The translations under genes were made by a program, and so were the position numbers. From positions 5,211,364 through 5,275,363 of the forward strand of contig CM040751.1 of NCBI GenBank assembly GCA_022829145.1: a stretch of 64,000 nt of DNA, read 5' to 3'. Origin of the DNA: Albula goreensis (lineage: Eukaryota > Chordata > Actinopteri > Albuliformes > Albulidae). This document shows, piece after piece, positions 1 to 58,006 of this stretch. Below the pieces are notes generated by a model. That model did no database searches. It was not told the origin of the DNA and saw nothing but the letters and a program-made list of their open reading frames with translations. The stretch's first letter is position 1; every line of letters starts with the position of its first letter.

Positions 1-1980
1 TGAGGGTTTCAAGGGTTAGGGTTTCTAAAATTAGGGTTAGGGTTTCTAGGGTTAGGGTTTCTAGGGTTAGGGTTTCTCAAATTAGGGTTAGGGTTTCTAG
101 GGTTAGGGTTTCTCAAATTAGGGTTAGGGTTTCTAGGGTTAGGGTTTCTTGAATTAGGGTTAGGGTTTCTAGGGTTAGGGTTTCTCAAATTAGGGTTAGG
201 GTTTCTAGGGTTAGGGTTTCTCAAATTAGGGTTAGGGTTTCTAGGGTTAGGGTTTCTCAAATTAGGGTTAGGTTTCTAGGTTAGGGTTTGTGAAATTAGG
301 TTAGGGTTTCTAGGGTTAGGGTTTCTCAAATTAGGGTTAGGGTTTCTAGGTTAGGGTTTCTCAAATTAGGTTAGGGTTTCTAGGGTTAGGGTTTCTCAAA
401 TTAGGGTTAGGGTTTCTAGGTTAGGGTGTCTAAAATTAGGGTTAGGGTTTCTAGGGTTGGGTTTCTCAAATTAGGGTGAGGGTTTCTAGGGTTAGGGTTT
501 CTCAAATTAGGGTTAGGTTTCTCACATTAGGGTTTCTAGGGTTAGGGTTTCTCAAATTAGGGTTAGGGTTTCTAGGTTAGGGTTTCTAAAATTAGGGTTA
601 GGGTTTCTAGGGTTAGGTTTCTAAAATTAGGGTTAGGGTTTCTAGGGTTAGGGTTTCTCAAATTAGGTTAGGTTTCTAGGGTTAGGGTTTGTGAAATTAG
701 GGTTAGGGTTTCTCAGGGTTAGGGTTCAAATTCTAGGGTTAGGGTTTGTGAAATTAGGGTTAGGGTTTCTAGGGTTAGGTTTCTCAAATTAGGTTAGGGT
801 TTCTAAAATTAGGTTAGGGTTTCTAGGGTTAGGGTTTTCAAATTAGGGTTAGGGTTTTGAAATTAGGGTTAGGGTTTTAGGGTTAGGGTTTCTCAAAAGG
901 GTTAGGGTTTCTTAGGGTTTCTAAAATTAGGGTTAGGGTTTCTAGGGTTAGGGTTTCTAAAATTAGGTTAGGGTTTCTAAGGGTTAGGGTTTCTAGAATT
1001 AGGTTAGGGTTTTAAAATTAGGTTAGGTTTCTAGGGTTAGGGTTTCTCAAATTAGGGTTAGGTTTCTAGGTTAGGGTTTTAAAATTAGGGTTAGGGTTTC
1101 TAGGGTTAGGTTTCTCAAATTTTTCTAGGGTTAGGGTTTTAAAATTAGGTTAGGGTTTCTAGGTTTTTAGAAATTAGGTTTTTTAAATTAGGTTAGGGTT
1201 TCTAGGGTTAGGTTTAAAAATTAGGGTTAGGGTTTCTAGGTTAGGGTTTCTGAAATTAGGTTAGGGTTTCTAGGGTTAGGGTTTCTCAAATTAGGGTTAG
1301 GTTTCTAAAATTAGGTTAGGGTTTCTAGGTTAGGTTTCTAAAATTAGGGTTAGGTTTAGAGGTTAGGTTTCTCAAATTAGGTTAGGTTTCTTGGGTTAGG
1401 GTTTTGAAATTAGGGTTTGGGTTTCTAGGGTTAGGGTTTCTAGGGTTAGGGTTTCTAAAGTTAGGGTTAGGGTTTCTAGGGTTAGGGTTTCTAGAATTAG
1501 GGTTAGGGTTTTAAAATTAGGGTTAGGGTTTCTAGGGTTAGGGCTTCTCAAATTAGGGTTAGGGTTTCTAGGGTTAGGGTTTCTCAAATTAGGGTTAGGG
1601 TTTCTAGGGTTAGGGTTTCTCAAATTAGGGTTAGGGTTTCTAGGGTTAGGGTTTGTGAAATTAGGGTTAGGGTTTCTAGGGTTAGGGTTTGTGAAATTAG
1701 GGTTAGGGTTTCTCAAATTAGGGTTAGGGTTTCTAGGGTTAGGGTTTGTGAAATTAGGGTTAGGGTTTCTAGGGTTAGGGTTTCTCAAATTAGGGTTAGG
1801 GTTTCTAAAATTAGGGTTAGGGTTTCTAGGGTTAGGGTTTCTAAAATTAGGGTTAGGGTTTCTAGGGTTAGGGTTTCTCAAATTAGGGTTAGGGTTTCTT
1901 GGGTTAGGGTTTTTGAAATTAGGGTTTGGGTTTCTAGGGTTAGGGTTTCTAGGGTTAGGGTTTCTAAAGTTAGGGTTTGA
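1..1980 (+). repeat. Telomere-like satellite, G-rich strand orientation (left arm of inverted array)
   Basis: The stretch is a tandem array in which TTAGGG-type hexamers alternate with TTTCT and CAAA links. The commonest unit is 36 bp (for example TCTCAA recurs at 75 and 111), made of a 15-bp half with AGGGTTAGGGTTTCT and a 21-bp half that adds CAAATT. There is no long pure TTAGGG run, so this is a telomere-derived satellite and not a working telomere tract. Copies between about 260 and 1400 have lost many single G's (GGTTAGG for GGGTTAGGG) and contain short truncated units, while 1396-1980 is clean. The G-rich strand on top is the wrong orientation for a chromosome left end. Long open frames run through the array only because 36 is a multiple of three. 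Confidence 0.95.
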
Positions 1981-2260
1981 GTTTAGTCTCGAGACTAAAG
2001 TTAGTCTTGAGTTTCGAGTTTGTAAGTTTTGAGTTTAGTCTCGAGTTTAAAGTTAGTCTCGAGACTAAAGTTAGTCTTGAGTTTCGAGTTTGTGTTTTAA
2101 GTTTTGAGTTTCGAGTTTAGTCTCGAGTTTAAAGTTAGTCTCGAGACTAAAGTTAGTCTTGAGTTTCGAGTTTGTGTTTGTAAGTTTTGAGTTTAGTCTC
2201 GAGTTTAAAGTTAGTCTCGAGACTAAAGTTAGTCTCGAGTTTAAAGTGAGATTTGAGATT
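1980..2260 (-). repeat. CTCGAG-core spacer repeats, left (inverted) copies
   Basis: About three and a half diverged copies of the AT-rich spacer family lie here, in reverse-complement orientation to the copies at 2304-2667. The shared block TTAGTCTTGAG starts at 2001, 2071 and 2153, so copy lengths vary (70 and 82 bp), unlike the constant 83 bp on the right. Each copy carries two or three CTCGAG (XhoI-type) sites inside the small palindrome AGTCTCGAGACT. The last copy runs into the hairpin centre at 2252-2277. No coding or RNA-gene features are visible. Confidence 0.9.
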
Positions 2261-2277
2261 AAATTTGAAATCTCAAA
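2252..2277. repeat. Imperfect hairpin at the symmetry centre of the inverted array
   Basis: TTTGAGATT at 2252-2260 is the exact inverse of AATCTCAAA at 2269-2277, with an 8-base AT-rich loop. The spacer family and the telomere-like repeats switch strand on either side of this point. It is therefore the local centre of the large inverted repeat, although the two arms are not equal in length. Confidence 0.8.
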
Positions 2278-2303
2278 CCCTACAAAAACAAATTCAAACT
2301 CAA

Positions 2304-2667
2304 GACTAACTTTAGTCTCGAGACTAACTTTAAACTCGAGACTAAACTCAAAACTCAAAACTTAAAAACACAAACTCGAAACTCAAGACTAACTTTAGTC
2401 TCGAGACTAACTTTAAACTCGAGACTAAACTCAAAACTCAAAACTTAAAAACACAAACTCGAAACTCAAGACTAACTTTAGTCTCGAGACTAACTTTAAA
2501 CTCGAGACTAAACTCAAAACTCAAAACTTAAAAACACAAACTCGAAACTCAAGACTTACTTTAGTCTCGAGACTAACTTTAAACTTGAGACTAAACTCAA
2601 AACTCAAAACTTAAAAACACAAACTCGAAACTCAAGACTAACTTTAGTCTCGAGACTAAGCTCAAAC
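2304..2667 (+). repeat. 83-bp tandem spacer repeat, 4.4 copies with exact spacing
   Basis: Copies start with GACTAACTTTAGTCTCGAGA (GACTTACTTTAGTCTCGAGA in the fourth) at 2304, 2387, 2470, 2553 and 2636, exactly 83 bp apart. The fifth breaks off after about 25-30 bp into CCCTAA-type repeat. The copies are nearly identical: the fourth has a single A-to-T change in the start motif (GACTTAC for GACTAAC) and a CTTGAG in place of CTCGAG. Such uniformity beside a variable left arm points to recent amplification or homogenisation of this side. The unit holds the palindrome AGTCTCGAGACT and a second CTCGAG. The family is not one I recognise. Confidence 0.95.
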
Positions 2668-4650
2668 CCTAACTTTAGAAACCCTAACCCTAGAAACCCA
2701 AACCCTAATTTCAAAACCCTAACCCTAGAAACCCTAACCCTAATTTAGAAACCCTAACCCTAGAAACCCTAACCCTAATTTTAGAAACCCTAACCCTAAT
2801 TTGAGAAACCCTAACCCTAGAAACCCTAACCCTAATTTTAGAAAAACCCTAACCCTAATTTTAGAAAAACCCTAACCCTAGAAACCCTAACCCTAACCCT
2901 AATTTGAAACCCTAACCCTAATTTGAGAAACCCTAACCCTAGAAACCCTAACCCTAATTTTAGAAACCCTAACCCTAGAAACCCTAACCCTAATTTGAGA
3001 AAAACCCTAACCCTAATTTCACAAACCCTAACCCTAGAAACCCTAACCCTAATTTGAGAAACCCTAACCCTAAGAAACCCTAACCCTAATTTGAGAAACC
3101 CAAACCCTAGAAACCCTAACCCTAGAAACCCTAACCCTAATTTTAGAAACCCTAACCCTAGAAACCCTAACCCTAATTTGAGAAACCCTAACCCTAGAAA
3201 CCCTAACCCTAATTTGAGAAACCCTAACCCTAGAAACCCTAACCCTAATTTTAGAAACCCTAACCCTAATTTGAGAAACCCTAACCCTAGAAACCCTAAC
3301 CCTAATTTAGAAACCCTAACCCTAGAAACCCTAACCCTAATTTGAGAAACCCTAACCCTAATTTCACAAACCCTAGAAACCCTAACCCTAACCCTAACCC
3401 TAGAAACCCTAACCCTAATTTTAGAAACCCTAACCCTAGAAACCCTAACCCTAATTTGAGAAACCCTAACCCTAGAAACCCTAACCCTAATTTTAGAAAC
3501 CCTAACCCTAGAAACCCTAACCCTAACCCTAGAAACCCTAATTTTAGAAACCCTAACCCTAGAAACCCTAACCCTAATTTGAGAAACCCTAACCCTAGAA
3601 ACCCTAACCCTAAGAAACCCTAACCCTAACTTTAGAAACCCTAACCCTAACCCTTTGAGAAACCCTAACCCTAATTTGAGAAACCCTAAACCCTAACCCT
3701 AATTTGAGAAACCCTAACCCTAGAAACCCTAACCCTAATTTGAGAAACCCTAACCCTAGAAACCCTAACCCTAATTTGAGAAACCCTAACCCTAGAAACC
3801 CCCTAGAAACCCTAACCCTAATTTGAGAAACCCTAACCCTAGAAACCCTAACCCTAATTTCACAAACCCTAACCCTAATTTAGAAACCCTAACCCTAATT
3901 TGAGAAACCCTAACCCTAATTTCACAAACCCTAACCCTAGAAACCCTAACCCTAATTTGAGAAACCCTAACCCTAGAAACCTAACCCTAATTTGACAAAC
4001 CCTAACCCTAGAAACCCTAACCCTAATTTGAGAAACCCTAACCCTAGAAACCCTAACCCTAATTTGAGAAACCCTAACCCTAGAAACCCTAACCCTAATT
4101 TGAGAAGAAACCCTAACCCTAACCTAATTTTAGAAACCCTAACCCTAATTTTAAAACCCTAACCCTAATTCTAGAAACCCTAACCCTAGAAACCCTAACC
4201 CTAACTTTAGAAACCTTAACCCTAATTTGAGAAACCCTAACCCTAGAAACCCTAACCCTAATTTTAGAAACCCTAACCCTAATTTTAGAAACCCTAACCC
4301 TAGAAACCCTAACCCTAATTTGAGAAACCCTAACCCTAGAAACCCTAACCCTAATTTTAGAAACCCTAACCCTAGAAACCCTAACCCTAACCCTAATTTG
4401 AGAAACCCTAACCCTAGAAACCCTAATTTCACAAACCCTAACCCTAGAAACCCTAACCCTAATTTCACAAACCCTAACCCTAGAAACCCTAACCCTAATT
4501 TCACAAACCCTAACCCTAGAAACCCTAACCCTAATTTGAGAAACCCTAACCCTAGAAACCCTAACCCTAATTTGAGAAACCCAAACCCTAGAAACCCTAA
4601 CCCTAATTTGAGAAGCCCTAACCCTAGAAACCCTAACCCTAATTTTAGAA
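2668..4650 (+). repeat. Telomere-like satellite, CCCTAA orientation (right arm, well-preserved part)
   Basis: The same 36-bp satellite as at 1-1980 lies here on the other strand: CCCTAACCCTAGAAA alternates with CCCTAACCCTAATTTGAGAAA or ATTTTAGAAA. CCCTAA reading inward is the orientation expected at a chromosome left end. Variant units such as ATTTCACAAA cluster (3845-3930, 4425-4510), which suggests local amplification. Nearly every unit keeps the full hexamers, unlike 260-1400. The longest perfect hexamer run is about four units (3380-3405), so this too is satellite and not telomere proper. Confidence 0.95.
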
Positions 4651-5423
4651 AACCTAACCCTAGAAACCCTAATTCTAGAAACCCTAACCCTAGAAACCCT
4701 ACCCTAGAAACCCTAACCCTAATTTGAGAAACCCTAACCCTAGAAACCCTAATCCTAATTCAAGAAACCCTACACCTAGAAACCCTAACCCCAATTTGAG
4801 AAACCCTAACCCTAGAAACCCTAATTTGAGAAACCCTCACCCTAGAAACCCTAACCCTAATTCTAGAAACCTTAACCCTAATTTTAGAAACCCTAACCCT
4901 AGAAAACACTAATTTTAGAAATCCTAACCCTGGAAGCCCTAACACTAATTTTAGAAACCCTAACCCTCGAAACCCTTACCCTAATTTGAGAAACCCTAAC
5001 TCTAGAAACCCTAACCCTAATTTCACAAACCCTAATCCTAGAAACCTTAATCCTAATTCTAGAAACCCTAACCCTAATTACACAAACCCTAACCCTACTT
5101 TTTGAAACCCTAACCCTAGAAAACAAGAATTTGAGAAACCCTAACCCTGGAAACCCTAACCCTAGAAACCCTAACCCTAATTTTAGAAACCCTATCCCTA
5201 GAAACCCCAACCCTAATTTTAGAAACCCTCATTTTGGAAAACCCTAACCCTAGAAAAACCATAACCCTAATTCTAGAAACCCTAATCCTAGAAACCCTAA
5301 TTATAATTCTAGAAACCCTATCCCTAGAAACCCTAATTATAATTAAAGAAACCCTATCCCTAGAAACCCTAACCCTAATTTTAGAAACCCTAATCCTAGA
5401 AACCCTAACCCTAATTAGACTAA

Positions 5424-5565
5424 TCAAGACTAAACTTAAACTCAAGATTAACTTAAACTCGAGACTAAACTAAAAGCCCAAACCCTACAAACACAAACTC
5501 CAAACTGAAGACTAACTTTAAACTCGAGAATAAACTTAAACTCAAGACTAACCTTACACCCAAGA
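5424..5565 (+). repeat. Diverged island of the CTCGAG-core spacer family
   Basis: This AT-rich segment contains AACTCGAGACTAAACT, ACACAAACTCCAAACT and GACTAACTTTAAACTCGAGA, which match the 83-bp unit at 2304-2667 with scattered changes. It sits between degenerate CCCTAA repeats. It shows that the spacer is an old component of the array and was not introduced only at the inverted junction. Confidence 0.85.
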
Positions 5566-6175
5566 AAACCTAACCCTAATTCTCGAAATCCTAACCCCAG
5601 AAACCCTAACCCTAATTCTCGAAACCCTACTCCTAATTCAAAAAACACAAACTCTAGAAACCCTAATTAAAGAAACCCCAACACTGGAAACCCTAACCCA
5701 GATTTTAGAAACCCTCACCCTAATTCAAGAAACCTTAACCCTAATTTAAGAATCATCCACCCTAATTAAAGAAACCCTAATCCTAATTTTAGAAACCCTA
5801 ACCCTAATTTTAGAAACCCTAACCCTTGAAACTCTCACCCTAATTTTAGAAACCCTAATTCTAATCCTAACTTTAGAAATCCTAATCCTAGAAACCCTAA
5901 TCCTAATCATGGAAACCCTAACCTTAATTATACAAACCCTAACCCTAGAAATCCTAACCCTAATTATACAAACCCTTACCCTAATTTCAGAAACCCTAAC
6001 CCAAGAAATTCTAACCCTAATTTTAGAAAAACTAACCCTAGAAACCGTAATCATAATTTTAGAAACCCTTACCCTGATTATAGAAACCCTAATCCTTATT
6101 TTAGAAACCCTAACCTTTGAAACCCTAATCCTAACTCAAGAAACCATAACCCTAATTTCAGAAACCCCAATTCTT

Positions 6176-6297
6176 GAAAATCCAAACTCTACACAAACTC
6201 CAAAAATCTTAATGTTAAACTCGAGACTAACCTTAAACTCGAGCCTAAACTCAAAACCCAAACCCTATGAACACAAACTCCAAAACACCAACAAACC
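6176..6297 (+). repeat. Second diverged island of the CTCGAG-core spacer family
   Basis: AAACTCGAGACTAACCTTAA, a second CTCGAG and ACACAAACTCCAAAA appear in the same order as in the island at 5424-5565, about 740-750 bp away. Both islands carry CCCAAACCCTA where the amplified 83-bp unit has CTCAAAACTTA. They are therefore closer to each other than to the amplified copies. Confidence 0.82.
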
Positions 6298-6540
6298 CTA
6301 ACCCTAATTCAAGAAACCCTAACCCTAGAAACCCTAAACCTAATTTGAGAAACCCTAACCCTAGAAAACCCTAATTCAACAAACCCTAACCCTAGAAACC
6401 CTAACCCTAATTCAAGAAACCCTAACATTACAAACCCTCACCCTAATTCTTTAAACCCTCATTTTAGAAACCCAAACATTAATTTAAAAAATCCTATCCC
6501 TTAAAACCCTAATCCTAATTGTATTAACCTTAAGCCTAAT

Positions 6541-8030
6541 TTCTCGAATTTATTCCAAAAGAGAATACTTAAAGTATTTAACAGCAATTTATCTGAATTT
6601 AATTGCTGAATCATCTTCATGTTATGAGATATTTCAACTGTTTGAGTTTCTACCTTTTTTCTCTGACAACCAATGTGCCACAAGTATGCTCGTGACTCAT
6701 TGATGCTTGCACCATATTTTTTTTGCTGATAAGGAATTATGTCAGCTCTCTATTATTAGGAGTTGCGGGTGAGGGAGAGTTTACCAATTATAGTTTACCA
6801 AATTGTCATGCAGAATGCACATAAATGTTATGTAGCTTTTAAACATGTAAAATATCAGCCAAATATTTGACTGCAGTCATAAGTGAACTACCACAAGGTC
6901 ATGGGAAACAGAGTAAGCTGGACAGGGATAACTGTGAATATCCCTGTGAAATTGAAGTACTGTAATATAAATTATATGTGTATCATATACATTCATTTAT
7001 AAAATATTGTTCATATTCGATGGTAAATTTTGATGTTGCTAATTTAATTTTATCATCCCCTTTACTATACAGAAAATAGATTTCCACCAAAATCTTCACT
7101 GGATTTGTTTATTTCAACTGAAAAAAGTTATTTTCATTTTTGGAGAATCCAAAGTGCATACATCCATAAGTTGATATTGGGGAAAAGGTATCATGCAGTA
7201 GCATGCATGAAGCCCAAAATGCATCTTCAACAACTGCAGCTTATTCACTGTACTCATATATTATTCAGTATTTCCCTGGAACACAAAAGATGTAACTTTT
7301 AATGTGAGAGCCATAAACTGCATGATATCTGATATGGTGGAGAGAAGAATATCGCCTTTCTGACAAGATCAGCATACACACTTACATGTGTGTGCCTGCC
7401 AGACACACACACACACACACACACACATAATGGAGGATTTCAGAAGTGTTTTACCAGCCGCCCCAGTAAAAACCTACAAAGTAATATTTCTCTATAACCC
7501 AATTAATTTCTATTTGTACTTCTTTAGAACCTCTACTGAGCTGCCAGATTATGCTTTTTTTAATGCATTTTAACAAACATGTAGTTGCATGTATGCGATG
7601 CTTATGTAAGTATGCAATAAGCCTATAATCTAGAAATAAATAATGAGTGAGATAATTCAGGACCATTTTATGGGCTATGACTGCACTTAATGGTTTTTTT
7701 TTTTTTTTTTTTTTTTAAAAACAGTTCCCTCTTTAAATTCATTTCTGTTGTCATGCATGGATGAGTGGATGTTTCTCTAATGAATCGTGATGTGTACAAA
7801 TACATGGGTTGTCATACAGTTTTTAGTGTTTTGCCTGGATAATGACATGGAATTAATGCTTCGTTCCAGTTTTGACCCGTAATTATTAACACTCTTTATT
7901 ACAGAGGATGTTTTGATGGAATCCTCACCTTTACCTCTGTGTATCACAGGTGCATTCTCAGAGGCGTCGTACGACATGAGTAATCTCACCACAGTGTGTC
8001 ACTCTGTCACTGGGTGTTACCAAAAGCCTT
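6541..8030. other. AT-rich unique DNA proximal to the satellite
   Basis: This is the first non-satellite DNA. It has no recognisable gene, and open frames are short and unsupported. It contains an (AC)13 tract at 7403-7427 and a 23-base T run followed by A5 at 7694-7716, which could be a retroelement tail, but no body is recognisable beside it. Confidence 0.6.
7403..7427 (+). repeat. (AC)n microsatellite
   Basis: An uninterrupted AC dinucleotide tract of about 25 bases in AT-rich unique DNA. Confidence 0.95.
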
Positions 8031-27975: not shown

Positions 27976-28298
27976 AGCGCATGTGGGTGTGTGTGTGTTT
28001 GTGTGAGGGAGGGAGATTGTGAGTGTGTGTGAGACAGTGTGTGCGTGCCCATGCATGTGTGCATGTGTGTATGTGGGTCCATGTGTGTTTATGTGTGTGA
28101 GACAGGGTATGTGTTTGTGTGTGTGTGAGAGAGAGAATGTATGTGTGTGCTTGCATGCATGCATGTGTGTGTGTGCGTGCGTGTGTGTGTGTGCGTGTGC
28201 ACGTGTGTCTGTGTGGATACATGTGTATGAGAGTTCATGTGTTCCTGAGTGTGTGTACATGCATATGGTTGTGTGGATACTTGCTTGTTTGTGTGTGA

Positions 28299-28336
<38 letters not shown>

Positions 28337-28339
28337 TAC

Positions 28340-28397
<58 letters not shown>

Positions 28398-28402
28398 ATG
28401 TG
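27976..28402 (+). repeat. TG-rich compound microsatellite
   Basis: (TG)n is interspersed with TGCATG, GAGA and TGCGTG words, ending in an uninterrupted (TG)28 at 28341-28396. Alternating purine-pyrimidine sequence of this length favours Z-DNA. Long Thr/His or Cys/Val open frames on both strands are artefacts of the repeat. Confidence 0.95.
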
Positions 28403-28732
28403 TGAGGGGCATGCCAGTCCAGCAGCATCAACCAGAATCTGAGATGGTGGGGTCAAACACCAGCATTGGAGAGACGGTCTGCAGTGCACTAATTTAGGGC
28501 CCACAGGTAATCCCGCGCGTGATGGAGTGCACCTCCGCCATGTTGCATAATGGGCCGATCTGCCAGTCTCAGGCATCCATCTCCATCTGCCATCGTAGTC
28601 CCTGGAAATGGCTGAAAGTGTCACATTACACGCATGCTAAACCAAGAGGAGCGCCCCTATCTCTCCCCTCTCCAACCAGTAATGCAGAACAGTCCCTGTC
28701 ACACACAAGAATGGGGGAAAAAAGAAATGAGG
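28403..28732. other. Non-repetitive DNA between the two TG-rich blocks
   Basis: A moderately GC-rich, repeat-free stretch without a recognisable coding frame. Confidence 0.45.

Positions 28733-57924: not shown

Positions 57925-57930
<6 letters not shown>
57601..57930. other. Intergenic DNA
   Basis: Nothing recognised apart from an A14 run at 57688-57701. Confidence 0.45.

Positions 57931-58006
<76 letters not shown>
57931..58006 (+). repeat. (CA)38 microsatellite
   Basis: A perfect uninterrupted CA tract of 76 bp, the longest pure dinucleotide run in the window and likely to vary in length between individuals. Confidence 0.97.

Follow-up and report, generated by a model that had tools for sequence, protein, structure and literature searches.

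Why a telomere-like array with its two halves facing each other lies far inside a contig of the Albula goreensis assembly (GCA_022829145.1; 931.9 Mb in 208 contigs) is the question raised by the stretch analysed here, a window of 64,000 nucleotides on contig CM040751.1 (hereafter C11, 5,211,364-5,275,363). TTAGGG-type repeats run through a spacer into CCCTAA-type repeats, a head-to-head order usually interpreted as the scar that a chromosome fusion leaves. We find that this island of repeats, about 7 kb in total, is one of at least eight islands seen in both orientations, that eight out of eight read TTAGGG followed by CCCTAA, and that several have their centres in common. On balance, the window island is probably one copy of a dispersed fold-back family with telomere-like minisatellite arms, which spread as units and were then enlarged and homogenised. 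The head-to-head order here most likely arose without a chromosome fusion.

The island is internal to its contig. A sequence-only reading had considered that the array might lie at a contig end and had confined it to 1-4550, but the window begins 5,211,364 bases into a contig of 39,075,509 bases, the array starts some 500 bases further left (with a left-edge motif at -516, counted from the window start) and its right arm extends to about 6540. Non-array DNA follows on both sides without N: the 50 kb to the left has no N and only stray telomere hexamers until its last 500 bases, and only stray hexamers occur in 6541-64000. The change of hexamer orientation proposed from the sequence holds, as CCCTAA is absent from 1-1982 and TTAGGG from 2661-6540, and the spacer indeed flips with the arms around the hairpin at the inversion centre (Table 1). 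Junction and spacer are mirrored between the arms, and AAAGTTAGGGTTTGAG at 1966 has its mirror copy at 2661. As single-stranded DNA, the central 683 bases (1982-2664) fold back on themselves, pairing almost end to end at -295 kcal/mol (DNA parameters), versus a mean of -87.7 kcal/mol for shuffled sequences (n = 20; z -39.6). The spacer contains nine copies of a 16-base palindrome, TTAGTCTCGAGACTAA, and Tandem Repeats Finder reports 4.7 copies of its 83-base unit over 2268-2659.

The arms themselves are built from a 36-base minisatellite with 15- and 21-base subunits, in which true hexamer runs are short (1-2 in the left arm, 1-3 in the right). Measured per 150 bases against five unit types, divergence in the right arm is 0-9% at 2665-5214 and 11-28% at 5215-6564, decay beginning at about 5215; it is 0-15% at 1-1950 and 25-40% to the left of the window, in bins that include spacer. 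The window island has a cleaner core and decayed edges. Another old spacer lies inside the right outer layer (about 6180-6290), and the hairpin within the decayed left layers has an almost complete stem (-34.9 kcal/mol, RNA parameters). A tRNA search of the window found none, and Pfam gave no match for the 9 of 29 listed window frames submitted to it.

It is conceivable that the inversion is an artefact of assembly, arising from a fold-back read or from a mis-join at 2264. The noisier left arm, which had been held to point that way, is real: units without one G number 28 of 168 on the left versus 5 of 244 on the right. However, such units are not biased towards the + strand genome-wide, one G-lacking 19-base pattern occurring 105 times forward and 231 times reverse. 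The whole-unit difference in arm length, previously named as a clue against a simple artefact, was the right clue. Both ends of the array pass into other DNA, other sites carry the same structure, and the arms are not co-linear copies. Mirror order of variants along the arms, which the sequence-only reading had described, was not found beyond the junction: when the left arm is taken in 13 blocks of 150 bases, a single block has its best fit no more than 60 bases from the mirrored place, and the other 12 fit best elsewhere in 2659-5420. The variant pairs cited for mirror order are present, but GAAATTAGGGTTTGGG, paired at 1915 and 2697, has a further copy at 1406, and the pair at 892 and 3651 counts for little, as the right side contains CCCTAAGAAA at two places (3068 and 3608). 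The lack of mirror order argues against a fold-back read, and we regard an artefact as very improbable. The left arm also carries an internal duplication, a sign of turnover within the arm; taken with the missing mirror order, it indicates a reshaping of the arms that either followed the inversion or was independent of it.

In the loci examined, units without one G are far more frequent in TTAGGG arms than in the CCCTAA arms of the same islands; they were seen at window 1-1400, L046:1-900 and L019. A strand-wise consensus error, which these loci had suggested as the source of the noise, was dropped after the genome-wide count. Read errors at telomeres that are strand-wise, and of another kind, have been described (PMC9414165; this and the other papers cited were at hand in part, and what we take from them extends to those parts).

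A head-to-head fusion of two chromosome ends, the reading that the sequence first invites, would produce TTAGGG followed by CCCTAA, as is described for human 2q13 and for one rearranged insertion (PMC7215372). However, the units are those of a degenerate minisatellite and not true telomere repeats, and the flanks hold only stray hexamers. Subtelomeric sequence was not found beside the junction, either as hexamers in the 50 kb to the left and in 6541-64000 or as the 3' end of the subtelomeric element described below, which BLAST failed to match in the window or its left flank. Seven other islands have the same order, two of the eight lie only 55 kb apart, and spacers are common to islands. Since the head-to-head order recurs at eight internal sites of one genome, the order alone is not proof of fusion, and a fusion at this locus is highly improbable. 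A short interstitial telomere left by break repair is likewise not supported, as the island is not a short one-way hexamer run in unique DNA; such runs exist elsewhere in the genome (for example, L008).

The relatives that bear on these alternatives were found with four queries: the window spacer, the C8 spacer, the decayed right arm and a 43-base unit. The search with the decayed right arm gave 189 matches, not all of them listed, and scored 26 of its 165 candidate stretches, so that the census of islands is a lower bound. The eight islands share sequence and are hence not eight independent trials of the order. Most islands read have a central spacer. That of the window matches the centres of the C8, C16, C17 and C2 islands, as well as C11:5.159M and, more weakly, places on C18, C19 and C22, and the C8 spacer recovers the same main islands when used as the query. 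Between the two neighbouring C11 islands, the spacer stretch at 5410-5568 differs from its copy at C11:5.158M at 3 of 159 positions. A hairpin core is shared as well: that of C17, where it lies at the flip as it does in C16, matches the left edge of the window island and a piece of the C16 locus, and C2:7.582M is matched from the middle of the core on (right half). The sharing of spacers between islands suggests that they spread together with the inverted centre. Rfam searches of five loci (L089, L081, L037, L043, L009) returned nothing at the gathering score. At C2:7,582,000-7,582,100 (L073, L081), about 160 bases of other DNA, joined at the hairpin, replace the left half of the core, as judged by eye.

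The two arms of most islands tested tend to share unit variants. Similarity was scored from the six-base linkers between hexamers in six islands, most of them with partial arms only, and averages 0.765 within islands versus 0.610 between islands; among all 720 pairings of left with right arms, two, the true one included, reach the sum of the true pairing. The C8 island has 41 copies of one unit variant, split 19 to 22 between its two arms, and C14 has 5. Such sharing suggests that the arms of an island have evolved together.

A fold-back origin accommodates these observations. Like fold-back transposons, the islands have long inverted arms with internal tandem repeats, and the dispersed copies have sequence in common beyond the arm repeat, namely the spacer and the hairpin core on several contigs. 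An inverted unit would have been copied to new sites in the manner of fold-back transposons, and we infer that the spread was by transposition; the arms would afterwards lengthen in place by slippage and unequal exchange, and copying between the arms would keep them alike. The wider proposal, that mobile fold-back elements carry telomere-like arms to internal sites in a fixed head-to-head order and that the arms are kept alike by inter-arm copying, is one that we advance tentatively and with distinctly less confidence than the membership of the window island in a fold-back family.

Several observations weigh against this explanation. Both edges were read for two islands, and in neither does target-site duplication exceed chance; these edges are decayed. 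The longest word common to both edges has 8 bases in the window island and 6 in C17, a length of 8 being reached by 49 of 300 random pairs. Inspection by eye of the few edges read revealed no common end motif. Only C17 and C16 have the hairpin core at the flip; it lies at the left edge of the window island and about 10 kb from the flip in C2. The C11:5.158M island flips directly, without a spacer. The number of TTAGTCTCGAGACTAA copies is high only in the window spacer. The arms of C16 score 0.55, below the between-island mean of 0.61, and those of C11:5.158M score 0.68, under the highest between-island value of 0.81. Among the matches listed, at least 14 further places were found in one orientation only, and the C16 island has a short flip from CCCTAA to TTAGGG at its left edge (L065, C16:23,549,500-23,549,799). 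Plain hexamers face each other within 30 bases head-to-head at four places and tail-to-tail at one; the counts are too few to lean on, although the single tail-to-tail pair speaks against a strict order of the islands.

Some of these points would follow if no mobile element were involved. In the main rival explanation, internal arrays broke at several sites near a self-complementary spacer, and the broken end folded back and was copied in place. Such a snap-back would account for the lack of a target-site duplication and for the direct flip at C11:5.158M; the nine palindromes of the window spacer fit it, and inverted duplications formed by fold-back are described (PMC3907307). However, the other centres have few copies of the palindrome (one each in C8 and C17, none in C16 and C2), a spacer and hairpin core common to several contigs would still require a means of spread, and the single polarity of the islands demands that the spacer always lay on the same side of the break. 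We consider an origin by snap-back unlikely, if less so than the other alternatives to a fold-back family.

A retroelement found in the course of the searches provides another route to the same order. The right arm of the C16 island contains the 3' end of an element. The last frame of this element matches GIY-YIG (PF01541, 2.5e-09), and a search of the PDB with the frame gave no match. Its upstream frame has a YLDD box, which we take to be a reverse transcriptase motif, and Pfam gave no match for that frame; from its features, we presume the element to be Penelope-like. There are 40 scored matches to its 3' end and 49 to its body, some of them within 100 kb of an end of C1, C2, C10, C11, C13, C14 or C23 and the others internal. 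Inverted elements of this kind, joined by their 3' ends to telomere-like repeats, could have made the head-to-head order and later lost their bodies. Indeed, telomere-like CCTAACCC repeats adjoin the element 3' end in 12 of the 12 loci read (of the 40 matches), the C19 island has a truncated copy between its arms, with the 3' end of the copy facing the CCCTAA arm, and inverted structures with palindromes are described in this element class (PMC3846280). The window and its left flank, however, have no BLAST match to the element 3' end, the part used as query; the C16 copy is flanked by CCCTAA repeats on either side within a single arm, as expected for insertion into an existing array; and the sequence read shows no element at the C17, C8 and C2 flips. 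An origin from inverted retroelements is improbable.

Table 1. Coordinates of the window island, its relatives and the GIY-YIG element. Plain numbers are window positions, negative ones lying to the left of the window.
Feature	Position	Strand	Remark
Decayed layers left of window	to ~C11:5,210,860		contain old spacer and intact hairpin at ~-237
Left arm, TTAGGG-type minisatellite	1..1982, continuing ~500 bases beyond window	+	
Left-arm internal duplication	1386..1465, duplicated at ~1893-1975	+	
Left half of palindromic spacer	1982..2247	+	~70-83-base units rich in TTAGTCTCGAGACTAA
Inversion centre, short hairpin GAGATTTGAG...AAATCTC	2248..2274	no strand	
Right half of spacer	2275..2664	-	83-base units
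Right arm core, CCCTAA-type minisatellite	2665..5420	-	
Older spacer copy	5424..5565	-	
Right arm, decayed outer layer	5566..6540	-	11-28% from unit set per 150 bases
Two-orientation islands	C11:5.21M (window), C11:5.15M, C2:7.57M, C8:30.38M, C16:23.55M, C17:9.86M		known from sequence
Two-orientation islands	C18:7.31M, C19:19.56M		known by position only
One-orientation places	C5:37.67M, C8:27.23M, C13:2.91M, C14:30.58M, C16:19.74M, C19:1.53M, C20:5.98M		part 1
One-orientation places	C21:7.69M, C21:23.08M, C21:24.67M, C22:1.81M, C22:20.45M, C23:2.91M, C23:18.39M		part 2
GIY-YIG element loci	L082-L093; L087:853-1584; L089:435-1319; C19:19,562,833-19,563,304		

Telomere-like repeats of another kind occur elsewhere in this genome. 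A different satellite of about 165 bases with TTAGGG runs fills both ends of C1 (L015, C1:1-6300; L016, right end), where the hexamer is oriented opposite to that of a finished telomere, and it is also found in stretches near an end of C2 (L019, C2:49,944,000-49,953,999). On C2 the hexamer flips at about 49,953,480, and over 49.82-50.11M, which includes L019, blocks of this satellite change orientation several times, as seen from the strands of one 19-base pattern. A galactosaminyltransferase exon (best PDB match 6.6e-08), which is consistent with an animal genome, lies beside a hexamer run on C1. The DNA flanking the window island contains AC/TG dinucleotide microsatellites (window 57930-58006, 28286-28404 and 7403-7427).

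If islands of this kind are indeed a mobile fold-back family, such a family repeats the signature of a fusion many times within one genome. The islands also lend themselves to testing how inverted arms evolve jointly, with variants shared by the arms of most islands and their order unmirrored in the window.

Among known systems, interstitial telomeric sequences of the fusion and break-repair types (PMC7215372) likewise place telomere-like repeats at internal sites, but the islands are of kilobase scale, consist of 36-base units, have common spacers and recur in a single order at many sites. Penelope-like elements at chromosome ends combine inverted structures with the use of telomeres (PMC3846280), and the GIY-YIG elements of this genome similarly adjoin telomere-like repeats with their 3' ends, whereas the window island lacks a detectable element part (3' end, BLAST). 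Fold-back inverted duplications (PMC3907307) resemble the islands in arising as inverted duplications via a hairpin intermediate, yet those are large single rearrangements and here a repeat family recurs. No islands such as these are described in the titles and abstract starts listed by the searches of open-licence literature. Fold-back transposons with tandem repeats in their inverted arms include FB of Drosophila melanogaster. The closest analogue is Tetris of Drosophila virilis, a fold-back transposon of the same build, in whose report Galileo is also named and whose copies bear target-site duplications of 8-10 bases (PMC4079207). The arms of the islands differ in being telomere-like and several kilobases long, and neither a target-site duplication nor a defined end was found for them. 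In other respects the likeness, as far as the part of that report at hand extends, is close: in Tetris-type transposons, too, long inverted arms hold tandem repeats on either side of a variable non-coding middle, repeat number varies between copies, and dispersed copies seed satellite-like arrays.

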